35,233 nt of DNA from positions 1-35,233 of the forward strand of contig JAPPGV010000142.1 in assembly GCA_028821235.1 (NCBI GenBank), written 5' to 3'. Positions 6,819-12,770 of this stretch are shown piece by piece. The DNA is from a bacterium (GTDB taxonomy: Bacteria > Actinomycetota > Acidimicrobiia > Spongiisociales > Spongiisociaceae). A program made the translations under genes and the position numbers. Each line of letters begins with the position of its first letter. Position 1 is the first letter of the stretch. The notes under the pieces are model-generated. The model saw only the letters and a list, made by a program, of their open reading frames with translations. It was not told where the DNA came from and searched no databases.

Positions 6819-6921
6819 ACCATCCACCGGGGCAGCCCTCGGCCGGGCGGTCCGGTCCCGGCGGTAGGCTGTGGTCAACGGAACCCCGGAATAACCGTCT
6901 GAAATGGAGGTAAACGCGGAT

Positions 6922-7593
6922 ATGAGCGAGTACGCACGGGTCGACATCGCCCAGCCCGAACTGAAGGAACTGGCCGACGCCATCGATGACGCACCGGGCG
7001 ACCGGCTCGCCAAGACCAAGCGCAAGTCCGACCTCGAAGGCGAGTTGCGCTACATGGAGCACTATCGCGAGGTCTCCGCCGACGACCCCATCCAGAAGGG
7101 CTGGGACGCCAACGAGGCCGAGTTCCACGCCAAGACCAAGATCTTCTCGGTACTCGCCGACGCCATGGAGCTCGAGCTGGGCCATGAGGCGGGCCGGGCG
7201 GCCGTAGCCAGGGCCCGCAAGCGGCAGGGTGACCAGATGGGCGCCGACATGGCCGCCAAGACCCGCGAAAAGGGCGAGCGGCTCAACCTCAACAACTTCT
7301 TCAAAGAGTTCTGGGGCTACTTCCAGTGGTCGCCGAAGCTGGACACCGAGCGCTACTACGACGATGAGGGCAACATGGTCAAGTACGTGTTGCGGCTCAA
7401 CTGCCCCATCGGCGACTACCTGCGTGACAACGCCCCCGACGTGGAGTTCTCCTCCAACTTCTGCGACCTCGACGAGCACATAGCGCTCGCCTACAACCCC
7501 AACATCCAGTACTCAAGGAAGCGCTGGGTGCCGGGCGGTTATCAGTTCAGCGAGCTGATCTGGGAGCTCGACACGGCCGGCGTCATCGACTGA
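6922..7593 (+). CDS. L-2-amino-thiazoline-4-carboxylic acid (ATC) hydrolase-like protein
   Basis: A 223-residue cytosolic protein. From memory the C-terminal region CPIGDYLRDNAPDVEF followed by SSNFCDLDEHIALAYNPNI resembles the ATC hydrolase-like family, named for the enzyme converting 2-aminothiazoline-4-carboxylate to N-carbamoyl-cysteine in Pseudomonas. Most family members are uncharacterised, so the reaction here is not established. The N-terminal third is highly charged and helical. ATG 6922 is preferred over ATG 6904 because GGAGGT (6906-6911) lies 10 bases upstream of it. It is followed after 32 bases by the alcohol-dehydrogenase-like gene, probably on the same transcript. Confidence 0.65.
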   Translation: MSEYARVDIAQPELKELADAIDDAPGDRLAKTKRKSDLEGELRYMEHYREVSADDPIQKGWDANEAEFHAKTKIFSVLADAMELELGHEAGRAAVARARKRQGDQMGADMAAKTREKGERLNLNNFFKEFWGYFQWSPKLDTERYYDDEGNMVKYVLRLNCPIGDYLRDNAPDVEFSSNFCDLDEHIALAYNPNIQYSRKRWVPGGYQFSELIWELDTAGVID

Positions 7594-9556: not shown

Positions 9557-9591
9557 GGCGAGATCGGAGTAGCCGACCGAGGGAGATACCG

Positions 9592-9870
9592 GTGGAGCAC
9601 CCCATCCTCTACAGCCTCAACACCGACGCACGAACCCCGACCTGACAGGAGTGCTGCCGGGTGCGCGACTACCTGGAGGCCAACTCCGTCGAGTTCGACG
9701 ACCGCAACATCCGCCAGAGCGAGCAAGCGCGCAGCGAGTTGCTCGCCCTGACCGGTGACCTGATCGTGCCCTACCTGGTCTACGGGGACCGGACGGTCAC
9801 CGGCTTCGACCCCGAGGGGATCGACGCCGTCGCCGATGCGTATCGCTCCGCCACCGCCGGCGTGTCCTGA
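9592..9870 (+). CDS. Glutaredoxin-like probable selenoprotein (in-frame TGA = Sec18, UQEC motif)
   Basis: Reading through the TGA at 9643-9645 gives a 92-residue thioredoxin-fold protein: first strand HPILYSL, redox motif U18-Q-E-C21, helix CRVRDYLEANSVEF, strand DDRNI, then the cis-Pro segment LIVPYLVYGDRTVTGFD and a C-terminal helix. In glutaredoxins the pattern is CPxC..(K/R)xYL; here the TGA falls exactly on the first, nucleophilic Cys, which is where selenoproteins carry Sec. GTG 9592 has AGGGAG six bases upstream. A start downstream of the TGA (GTG 9661) would lack strand 1 and the whole active site. A SECIS-like hairpin follows the TGA. The loop between strand 1 and Sec is about six residues longer than in classical Grx. 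Alternatives are a recent nonsense mutation or a sequencing error. From memory, NCBI names related 'UXX-star (seleno)protein' families; membership was not tested. Confidence 0.75.
9653..9680 (+). promoter_or_regulatory. Candidate bacterial SECIS element
   Basis: CCGGGT (9657-9662) pairs with ACCTGG (9671-9676): five Watson-Crick pairs and one G-U. Beyond a G-A mismatch and a U-G pair, GC 9653-9654 pairs with GC 9679-9680. The 8-base apical loop GCGCGACT begins with G, and 17 bases separate the TGA from the loop. This fits the known bacterial SECIS layout, a hairpin just 3' of the UGA with a G at the start of the apical loop. An alternative fold pairing CAGGAGT (9646-9652) with ACT/CCTG exists. 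Folding energy was not computed. Confidence 0.6.
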
Positions 9871-9886
9871 GCAGATCCGAGATCAC

Positions 9887-10144
9887 GTGTCACATCCTCC
9901 CGGGAACTCACTGCAAGCCGACCAGAGGGCCCGTGTCTCCGAACCCGGCGAGAGTCCGGAACGGGGGATCCTCCATCTCATCGAGCGGGTCCGGCAGGAA
10001 CTGGACTACAACGACGCCAAGGGCCAGAGCGCCTACCGGCTCGGCATGCACGACGGGCTCAGGTTCGCCGAGGACGCTCTCGTGAACCTGCTGAACCGCC
10101 ACGGATACCAGGCCCAGGTTCGCGAGACCCCGATGGACATGTAG
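9887..10144 (+). CDS. Small conserved-looking protein of unknown function
   Basis: An 85-residue hypothetical protein. The first 25 residues are disordered-looking (Pro, Gly, Arg), followed by an amphipathic helical part, [17 protein letters not shown] and [20 protein letters not shown], ending in charged residues. No family was recognised. GTG 9887 starts 16 bases after the glutaredoxin-like stop; ATG 9836 would overlap that gene by 35 bases. It ends 7 bases before the ABC transporter ATPase, so it may be co-transcribed with either neighbour. Confidence 0.55.
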
Positions 10145-10151
10145 CGGAAGG

Positions 10152-10919
10152 ATGAGCCAGACCGAGGACGCCCGGCCCGTCGTCCGGCTACGCAACATCC
10201 ACAAGTCGTTCGATACCAACCATGTCCTGAGAGGCATCGACCTGACGGTGGGACAGGGCCAGCACGTGGTCATCTTCGGGCCATCCGGATCCGGCAAGTC
10301 AACGCTGCTCAGAACCACCAACCTCCTGGAGACCCCCGATTCCGGTTCGGTCTGGTTCGACGGCAAGGAATACGGCCCCGGCATCGAAGGCGAGGACCTG
10401 CCCCGTGGCAAGGCGCGGCTCCTCCGCCAGCAGATCGGCATGGTGTTCCAGCAGTTCAACCTGTTCCCCCACGTCACCGCGCTCGACAACGTGGCTCTGG
10501 CCCTCCGGCGGGTGCGGGGGATGAAGCGCGACAAGGCCGAGCACAAGGCCGCCACCTACCTCGACCGGGTGGGCCTGCTCGACAAGCTGGGCGCCTTCCC
10601 GTCACAGCTGTCGGGCGGCCAGCAGCAGCGGGTGGCGATCGCCCGCTCCCTGGTCATGGAACCCAAGGTGATGCTGTTCGACGAACCCACCTCGGCTCTC
10701 GACCCCGAGTTGGTAGGCGAGGTGCTGGCCGTCATGCGTGACTTGGCGGAGTCGGGCATGACGATGGTGGTGGTAACCCATGAGATGGGATTCGCCCGGG
10801 AAGCCGGGGATCTCAACATATTCATGGATGATGGCCTGGTGGTGGAGTCGGGGGGCAAGGAGCTCTACAGCGACGCCAGGGAGCCGCGCACCAGAGCCTT
10901 CTTCGAGGCAATCCTCTGA
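10152..10919 (+). CDS. Polar amino-acid ABC transporter, ATP-binding protein
   Basis: A 255-residue ABC ATPase of the GlnQ/HisP type that powers uptake of a polar amino acid from the inner face of the membrane. Walker [10 protein letters not shown] is at 43-51, Q-loop Q100 in [11 protein letters not shown], signature LSGGQQQR at 153-160, Walker B VMLFDE with catalytic E178, D-loop SALD, and switch His210 in [10 protein letters not shown] short extra segment around residues 70-90 ([15 protein letters not shown]) lies between Walker A and the Q-loop. Its stop overlaps the permease start by one base (TGATG). Confidence 0.95.
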
Positions 10920-11731
10920 TGTTCGACTTTGGTGTGTGGATACTCGCGCAGGCGCGTTTCAGGCCCGAGTTCATCTGGGATAACCGGGACGCCTTCCTCG
11001 GCGGAGTGAGGCTCACCGTATTCATCGCCATCGTCGCTTTCGCGCTGGCGACCGTACTCGGCCTGGGGGTTGCTCTCCTGCGCATGTCGAAGAATCGGCT
11101 TCTCGCCCCGATCGTGGCCGCCTACATCAACATCTTCCGGGCTATCCCCCTGCTGGTGTTCGTAGTCTTCGTGTACTACGGGATAGCGATCCAGTTTGAC
11201 GTCAAGATCTCAGCCATCCAGGCCGGGATCCTGGTTCTCACCCTTCAATACTCCGCCTGGCTGGGCGAGATCTTCCGCGGCGGCATCCAGGCGGTCTCCG
11301 ACGGGCAGACCCAAGCGGCCCTGTCGGTGGGTATGAGCCGTCCCCAGACCTTCTTCCGGGTGGTGCTGCCGCAGGCCATCCGCATCGTCATCCCGCCCAC
11401 GGGCAACATGTTCATCGGCATGATCAAGGACTCGTCTCTGGTCTTCATAATCGGTGTACCCGAGCTCTTCCGCGTGAGCAGCGTGATGGCCAACAGGACA
11501 TTCCGCTACTTCGAGGTGTATCTCGGCGCGGTTATCTTCTACCTCATACTCACCACCGCGGCGTATTTCGGAGTCAAGTACCTCGAGAAGCGGTTTGCCC
11601 TGGTGGACGTCCTCACCGCCAGAGTGAGGTCACCCCTCGCCCGGCGCAGGGGGGTACGTCTGAGGACGATCCAGGAGGCTGTCGCATCTGAACGTGAATC
11701 CAAATCGTCCGGGACGGCTACGGCAATGTAG
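10919..11731 (+). CDS. Polar amino-acid ABC transporter, permease
   Basis: A 270-residue HisM/GlnP-family membrane protein with about five membrane segments, the first at roughly residues 30-55 (LTVFIAIVAFALATVLGLGVALL). The cytoplasmic coupling (EAA) loop is clear: GQTQAALSVGMSRPQTFFRVVLPQA, read in parts. FRAIPLLVFVVFVYYG is typical of the family. It overlaps the ATPase gene by one base. Only one permease is present, so the transporter may use a homodimer, or its partner is encoded elsewhere. The C-terminal tail (RSPLARRRG onward) is basic and cytoplasmic. Confidence 0.94.
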   Translation: MFDFGVWILAQARFRPEFIWDNRDAFLGGVRLTVFIAIVAFALATVLGLGVALLRMSKNRLLAPIVAAYINIFRAIPLLVFVVFVYYGIAIQFDVKISAIQAGILVLTLQYSAWLGEIFRGGIQAVSDGQTQAALSVGMSRPQTFFRVVLPQAIRIVIPPTGNMFIGMIKDSSLVFIIGVPELFRVSSVMANRTFRYFEVYLGAVIFYLILTTAAYFGVKYLEKRFALVDVLTARVRSPLARRRGVRLRTIQEAVASERESKSSGTATAM

Positions 11732-11852: not shown

Positions 11853-12770
11853 ATGAAGAGCCGCATGAAGTGGCTGGTCCCGGTACTTGCACTAGCAATG
11901 CTCGCGGGCGCCTGCGCCGACAATGGTGGCGGCAGCGACGCAGCGGCCGGCGATGGTCAGATGGCCGCAGACATGGCCGCCATGGAGGCCAGGATCGTGG
12001 AACTCGAGTCATCCATGGACGCATCCGGCGGGGGCGTCGTCGACGGCAACCTGCTGGACGAGATCAAGGATCGCGGAACCCTCCACGTCGGTATGGTCCT
12101 CCAGTTCCCGCCGCAGATGTACATCGATGACGCAGGGAACCCCGCCGGGTACGACGTGGACCTGATGAACATGCTCGCCGAGGATCTCGGAGTGACGCTC
12201 GAGATTTCCAACCTCGAGTTCGACGCGATGATCCCGGGCCTGATCGCCAACCAGTTCGACATGGTGTCGGTAGGTCTCGTCGGTCGTCCGGCTCGTCTCG
12301 AGCAGCTCTGGTTCACATGCCCGTACGTTCCTTACCGCCAGGTCGTCGTGGTGAACAACGACTCGGGGATCAACGACATCAGCGAGTTGAACAGCAGTGG
12401 CGTGACCATGACCGCCCTGATCGGTTCGACCGCGGCCAGCCTCACCGAGACCCGGTTCCCGAACGCGGAACTCGTGGAGCTCGATCAGGCGCCTGCGTTG
12501 CTCGAAGTCGCCTCGGGTAGGGCCGACGCCATCGTCATCGAGGAGTACCTCGCCCTTCCGTTCGTAGCGGAGAACCCGAGCACCAGCGTGCTGAACCCCA
12601 ACGCGCCGTTCGTCGCAGAGGAGTACGGGGCATGGGCCCTCCCCCGCGGTGAGGTCGTGTGGCTGAACTACCTGAACGGCTGGCTGGCCTACTACATCTC
12701 GAGGGGCACGCTCGACGAGGTCTACGAGCGGCACATCGGTCCGACCGAGGGTCTCCCCGCCTGTAACTAG
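11853..12770 (+). CDS. Amino-acid ABC transporter substrate-binding lipoprotein
   Basis: A 305-residue extracytoplasmic solute-binding protein of family 3 (SBP_bac_3). A lipoprotein signal peptide ends at C21 (MLAGAC), followed by a Gly/Ser stretch and a short coiled-coil-like linker (residues 35-55), then the two-lobed domain: LLDEIKDRGTLHVGM, GYDVDLMNMLAEDLGV, then the hinge and YVPYRQVVVVN. Ligand residues cannot be assigned with confidence. The start is ATG 11853 with GGGAGGAG at 11838-11845. It completes the importer with the upstream ATPase and permease, and strong hairpins follow the stop. The substrate is probably a polar amino acid. Confidence 0.93.
   Translation: MKSRMKWLVPVLALAMLAGACADNGGGSDAAAGDGQMAADMAAMEARIVELESSMDASGGGVVDGNLLDEIKDRGTLHVGMVLQFPPQMYIDDAGNPAGYDVDLMNMLAEDLGVTLEISNLEFDAMIPGLIANQFDMVSVGLVGRPARLEQLWFTCPYVPYRQVVVVNNDSGINDISELNSSGVTMTALIGSTAASLTETRFPNAELVELDQAPALLEVASGRADAIVIEEYLALPFVAENPSTSVLNPNAPFVAEEYGAWALPRGEVVWLNYLNGWLAYYISRGTLDEVYERHIGPTEGLPACN

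Follow-up and report, generated by a model that had tools for sequence, protein, structure and literature searches.

Putative selenocysteine glutaredoxin GrxU and its co-occurring partner gene in Acidimicrobiia: an apparently new subfamily

Introduction

A reading frame interrupted by TGA exactly where glutaredoxins carry their first catalytic cysteine raises the question of whether the codon is a stop, an error, or a site of selenocysteine (Sec) insertion, and, in the last case, whether the product belongs to a family that already has a name. Such a frame lies in the window, by which we mean the whole 35,233-nucleotide stretch analysed here (contig JAPPGV010000142.1 of assembly GCA_028821235.1), which comes from a bacterium of the Spongiisociaceae in the class Acidimicrobiia. 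An earlier note, made from this sequence alone, had proposed a real selenoprotein on a branch distinct from classical glutaredoxins. Sec-glutaredoxins as such are an accepted bacterial family, assigned to PF00462 and marked by UxxC, in the literature (PMC1088965; Table 1 of PMC13188914).

Results

The gene, for which we coined the name grxU, occupies positions 9592..9870 on the forward strand, as do all other window features described below, and would encode a glutaredoxin-like selenoprotein of 92 residues from a GTG start. The probable ribosome-binding site AGGGAG (9580..9585), read directly in the sequence, stands six bases before GTG 9592, and similar purine-rich stretches precede the grxU start in several congeners. 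The in-frame TGA at 9643..9645, read as Sec on the strength of its conservation in orthologues, corresponds to residue 18 and to the first position of a U-x-x-C site, and the next in-frame stop is the TGA at 9868-9870. Direct reading confirmed this layout, which the earlier note had given from the AGGGAG through the internal TGA to 9870. With TGA translated as U, the product is VEHPILYSLNTDARTPT-U-QECCRVRDYLEANSVEFDDRNIRQSEQARSELLALTGDLIVPYLVYGDRTVTGFDPEGIDAVADAYRSATAGVS, and its active-site motif is T-P-T-U-Q-E-C-C-R-V-R-D-Y-L.

The proposal that the read-through frame gives a complete thioredoxin-fold layout also held. The Pfam model PF00462 (Glutaredoxin) matched residues 9-67, on both sides of the TGA, with an E-value of 2.7e-10 and 40.7 bits, above the gathering score of 22.9 bits. 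The predicted fold was beta-alpha-beta-alpha-beta-beta-alpha, of the glutaredoxin/NrdH type (pLDDT 90.5), and the best PDB matches of the model were Grx-1 (3ic4), NrdH (4fiw/4hs1) and cGrx1 (7c10/7c12), at target TM-scores of about 0.7-0.84. An invariant V59-P60 pair falls just before strand 3. By profile and by predicted fold, GrxU is a member of the glutaredoxin superfamily, for which disulfide reductase activity dependent on glutathione or another low-molecular-weight thiol would be expected. The gene would be missed or truncated by gene callers that terminate at stops, and no NCBIfam model calls it.

A translated search located grxU in 14 of the 138 genomes of the order, spread over three families. 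The carriers comprise the window's genome and eight more of the ten in its genus, members of two further genera of its family, and members of three genera from another two families. These orthologues were 64-91% identical, and every copy (14/14) contained exactly one in-frame TGA. A scan of named genome contigs returned 17 loci, all 17 with the TGA; many of them are genomes of the order under public names, joined by five more divergent loci, and their titles read Acidimicrobiia or 'bacterium'. An even draw of 396 genomes from the phylum added one carrier (G403), from another class and also with TGA, and a draw of 395 genomes from the class yielded no additional copy and no Cys form. The sole extra weak match in the class draw (L141) was an ordinary CSWC glutaredoxin. 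The drawn sets held one genome per species, and the contig collection was searched with two peptide patterns; across the order, the class and phylum draws and this collection, we found no Cys orthologue of the U-Q-E-C-C subfamily, so that the classical pairing of Sec with Cys has to be drawn from more remote relatives. In those, the first Cys of CPYC or CSWC stands opposite the TGA, as the earlier note had proposed for the first glutaredoxin Cys. The bin names of several carriers suggest an origin in marine-sponge metagenomes, and a search of the literature on selenoproteins in Acidimicrobiia or sponge symbionts returned nothing relevant. One congener, G027, was the only one in the genus without grxU; it also lacked the partner gene described below and kept the Sec machinery.

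The plainest alternative is that the TGA is a real stop, left by a pseudogene or by a sequencing error for TGC, TGT or TGG, since gene callers would see a stop at TGA 9643 and the assembly is of draft quality. However, when the codons of 19 loci were aligned without gaps, every locus carried TGA at the Sec codon, in independent assemblies and down to 64% protein identity, which excludes the sequencing error. The frame was intact and under constraint on both sides of the codon, and conservation across genera, families and two classes refutes the reading as a stop, to which we attach practically no probability. The constraint upstream was evident from the 13 codons 5' of the TGA, where the 19 loci differed from the window by 0-9 synonymous and 0-3 replacement codon changes, so that this part is under constraint at the level of the protein. 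Forty-four of the 92 columns were invariant in the 14-sequence protein alignment, among them the run R14-T15-P16-T17-U18-Q19-E20-C21-C22-R23-V24-R25. Orthologues with TGA, wider relatives with Cys and a conserved upstream part thus left the earlier proposal unrefuted among homologues.

The same alignment bears on the idea that two proteins are made, a 17-residue leader ending at the TGA and a reinitiated downstream protein. In the window the sixth codon after the TGA is GTG, a possible start, but only 11 of the 19 loci have GTG there, the rest having GTA or GTT, and none of the in-frame start codons further downstream is common to all 19. A reinitiated product would moreover be left without strand 1 and without an active site, yet the upstream codons are conserved. 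We regard reinitiation as extremely improbable.

Reading of the codon as Sec would call for a recoding signal, and a SECIS-like hairpin was found at 9648..9687, beginning two bases behind the UGA. When the 19 loci were folded, most hairpins began two bases after the codon and the apical loop lay about 19-26 bases behind the UGA; in the window this loop is CGCGAC, with a G among its first two bases. The 45 bases from the TGA onwards folded more stably than recoded versions with synonymous codons sampled according to the window's codon use (13 loci, mean z -2.0), so that the hairpin exceeds what the protein sequence demands. Stretches before the TGA and from 27 bases after it, overlapping stretches excepted, gave z near or above zero, and two loci (L095, L097) had little or no excess stability. 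RNAalifold over the 19 loci produced a weak consensus with no shared set of compensated (covarying) pairs, because the register of the hairpin shifts between clades, and Rfam, queried on the window and locally, gave no match. Bacterial SECIS elements sit directly downstream of the UGA and bear a guanosine in a small apical loop (PMC1088965); the GrxU hairpin is consistent with this description, which we count as support rather than proof. Immediately behind it, at 9688..9699, lies the inverted repeat GTCGAGTTCGAC, which is inside the coding region, is identical in 19/19 loci and could form a second short hairpin. Third positions at codons +15 to +25 varied less than at most other invariant grxU residues, an effect to which codon preference may contribute.

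The machinery for Sec was present in part in the window's own genome. A tRNA-Sec with anticodon TCA was detected there at 77 bits, and tRNA-Sec occurred in all 14 grxU carriers, as against 90 of the 138 genomes of the order. The genome also contains selD, and in each of the 15 genomes examined this gene has a single in-frame TGA; the three copies that were read (L077, L078, L080) have this codon where Sec usually stands (GSGUACK, GAGUACK and GGGUASK, respectively). In the window's own draft neither selA nor selB turned up; the best selB-like match there (L010) proved to be IF-2 and the weaker ones other translational GTPases. The two genes are adjacent to each other and present in all nine congeners (e.g., G027:C57 47079-50188), and every other grxU carrier has both. 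As selA and selB lie side by side in the congeners and the genome is a draft of 162 contigs at about 97% completeness, one assembly gap could explain both losses, and a single gap would be the simplest reading of their absence. Of the four components that the earlier note had named as a check, tRNA-Sec and selD were thus recovered in the genome itself, and selA and selB were seen only in its relatives.

The absence of selA and selB from this draft, together with a Sec assignment that comes from sequence, is what favours a recoding of the UGA without Sec, by reassignment to Trp or Cys or by simple read-through. Against it stand the tRNA-Sec, the Sec-type SelD and the selA-selB pair of the congeners; grxU itself ends with TGA, so that TGA also serves as a stop; and the codon occupies the catalytic Cys position of glutaredoxins, with a hairpin directly behind it. 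Recoding without Sec is accordingly very improbable in our estimation. From the anatomy of the gene, its conservation and the machinery, we infer with high confidence that Sec is inserted at UGA 9643, and the earlier claim of a real selenoprotein gains support from the TGA in 19 aligned loci, tRNA-Sec, selD and the hairpin.

Two features of the neighbourhood were absent from the earlier note, namely a partner gene and a transporter operon. The partner gene (9887..10144) encodes 85 residues without cysteine, with the pattern PPGNSL...LDYNDAKG...RHG, and was recognised by synteny, by co-occurrence and by its fusion to grxU in five other loci. Among the 138 genomes of the order, its homologues were confined to the 14 that carry grxU, and all 14 had it. 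Of 18 loci examined, 17 have it immediately after grxU; in the remaining one (L093) it lies on the far side of the importer genes. In L096, L098, L099, L100 and L101, it was fused in frame to the C-terminus of GrxU, giving proteins of 180-188 residues. Invariant residues of the partner include Y-x-x-A-K-G and H-D-G-L-R-F, and the protein matched nothing in Pfam or NCBIfam. A model of the fusion protein (pTM 0.47) comprised the glutaredoxin domain, a flexible linker of low confidence and a two-helix hairpin, with no reliable interface between the glutaredoxin domain and the helical part. On these grounds the partner is a previously unnamed protein family, predicted to be helical. The genes flanking the fused loci had no common function, except for cobyrinate-synthase-like genes upstream in two of them.

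Behind the partner gene come the components of an importer: an ABC transporter ATPase of the polar amino acid type (10152..10919), whose best NCBIfam model was L-cystine TcyN, below cut-off; a permease (10919..11731), whose best model was a cystine permease, also below cut-off; and a family 3 solute-binding lipoprotein (11853..12770), assigned to the same importer by PF00497 and synteny. A polar amino acid type ABC importer adjoined grxU in 12 of 18 loci, L094 being cut off by a contig end, and in the fused loci the importer was not adjacent to grxU.

Discussion

Since Sec-glutaredoxins are already known, the question that remains is whether GrxU simply belongs to one of the named groups, be it of the Uxx-star, YruB or clostridial cGrx1-like type. 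It shares with them a common fold and a U-x-x-C site. The NCBIfam Uxx-star families and GlrX_YruB are likewise small glutaredoxin-like (seleno)proteins with detectable similarity to GrxU, and its best NCBIfam models were GlrX_YruB TIGR02196 and Uxx_star NF041212. The scores, however, fell far under the cut-offs: 52.2 bits against 88.55 for TIGR02196, 33.9 against 66 for NF041212, and 13.3 against 72, 26.4 against 100 and 25.6 against 97 for Uxx-star families 1, 2 and 3 (Uxx-star models compared: NF041212, NF041211, NF041114 and NF047338). NrdH redoxins (PDB 4fiw, 4hs1, 1h75) are among the closest folds to the GrxU model, but the NrdH model TIGR02194 was missed (26.8 against 85.75) and no ribonucleotide reductase gene was seen beside grxU; the mycoredoxin model TIGR02200 scored 19.5 against 89.5.

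The closest sequence match among solved structures was cGrx1 of Clostridium (Alkaliphilus) oremlandii (E 9e-11; PDB 7c10, 7c12), which shares the glutaredoxin fold and has Sec at the first motif position (PMC7642778). That clostridial enzyme has the motif U(or C)PXC without an NTDAR loop, whereas GrxU has U-Q-E-C-C with the loop, and no partner gene of the GrxU type is named in the text consulted (PMC7642778). Sec-glutaredoxins from the Sargasso Sea and from other bacteria likewise have a hairpin behind the UGA; in the available portions of their accounts they are not resolved to the GrxU branch, and no U-Q-E-C-C member or partner is named (PMC1088965; PMC13188914). In our tree the TGA family grouped as a single clade (support 99/95), set on a long stem and apart from its Cys relatives, the nearest relatives outside the clade being ordinary CPYC-type glutaredoxins. 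The loop before the Sec (LNTDARTPT) is longer than in classical glutaredoxins and nearly invariant among orthologues; with the sub-cut-off scores and the separate clade, it bears out the earlier suggestion of a distinct branch. The separate clade, the NTDAR-containing loop, U-Q-E-C-C in place of U-P-x-C and the strictly linked partner together make ordinary membership unlikely. GrxU instead appears to be a new, apparently Sec-only subfamily, as judged from the motif, the loop, the partner and the lack of a Cys form in the sets searched. The prokaryotic selenoproteome would thereby gain such a subfamily in mostly uncultured actinobacteria, chiefly Acidimicrobiia. As no Cys form was found, selenium is possibly not easily replaced in GrxU, which may be a case where such replacement is hard. 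One of the nearest relatives outside the clade, a more classical glutaredoxin from a different member of the phylum (G389:C96, L109, 1417-1638), has an in-frame TGA at the first position of its active site (TPTUPYC) and is probably a separate Sec-glutaredoxin.

Taken together, these data make it very probable that grxU encodes a Sec glutaredoxin-like oxidoreductase, in which recoding by hairpin and SelB, resolution by Cys21 and a dedicated partner encoded downstream are jointly explained. The SECIS hairpin behind UGA 9643 would recruit SelB with Sec-tRNA, the UGA would be read as Sec, and translation would continue to the TGA at 9868. By homology with U/CPxC glutaredoxins, the selenol of U18 would attack a disulfide or some other oxidised substrate; resolution of the intermediate would then fall to Cys21, possibly helped by its equally invariant neighbour Cys22. 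In cGrx1, an enzyme of the U/CPxC type, Sec attacks the oxidised substrate and the second-position Cys resolves (PMC7642778). Because the partner never occurs without grxU in the order searched and is fused to it in one locus group, the small helical protein may be a dedicated partner or specificity subunit of GrxU, and it offers a concrete handle on GrxU function. Whether it confers specificity for the substrate or for the reductant is a guess on our part. A comparable architecture is found in C. oremlandii, whose selenoprotein MsrA, likewise a small redox enzyme with Sec, carries an extra helical domain at its C-terminus and depends on it for activity (PMC4333827); for the fused partner this is an analogy only, with a different enzyme and no homology implied.

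The neighbouring cystine-like importer suggests that GrxU and its partner might process disulfides brought in from outside, for example cystine, although an imported disulfide as substrate is again a guess. We tentatively entertain, at rather less than even chances, a broader proposal: a two-part, Sec-only redox enzyme in which the partner would supply the substrate or reductant binding absent from U-Q-E-C-C, and which most carriers would use with the importer, for example in reducing cystine or selenocystine.

A search for the mycothiol enzyme MshC gave homologues in all 16 genomes, all below cut-off, and also in 13 of 14 controls, and we read these matches as relatives of cysteinyl-tRNA synthetase. 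Upstream in the window, at 6904-7590, a gene conserved upstream in congeners matches the Pfam ATC_hydrolase family (L-2-amino-thiazoline-4-carboxylate hydrolase), an activity that offers a route to cysteine, and its presence may be in keeping with a link to sulfur amino acids.
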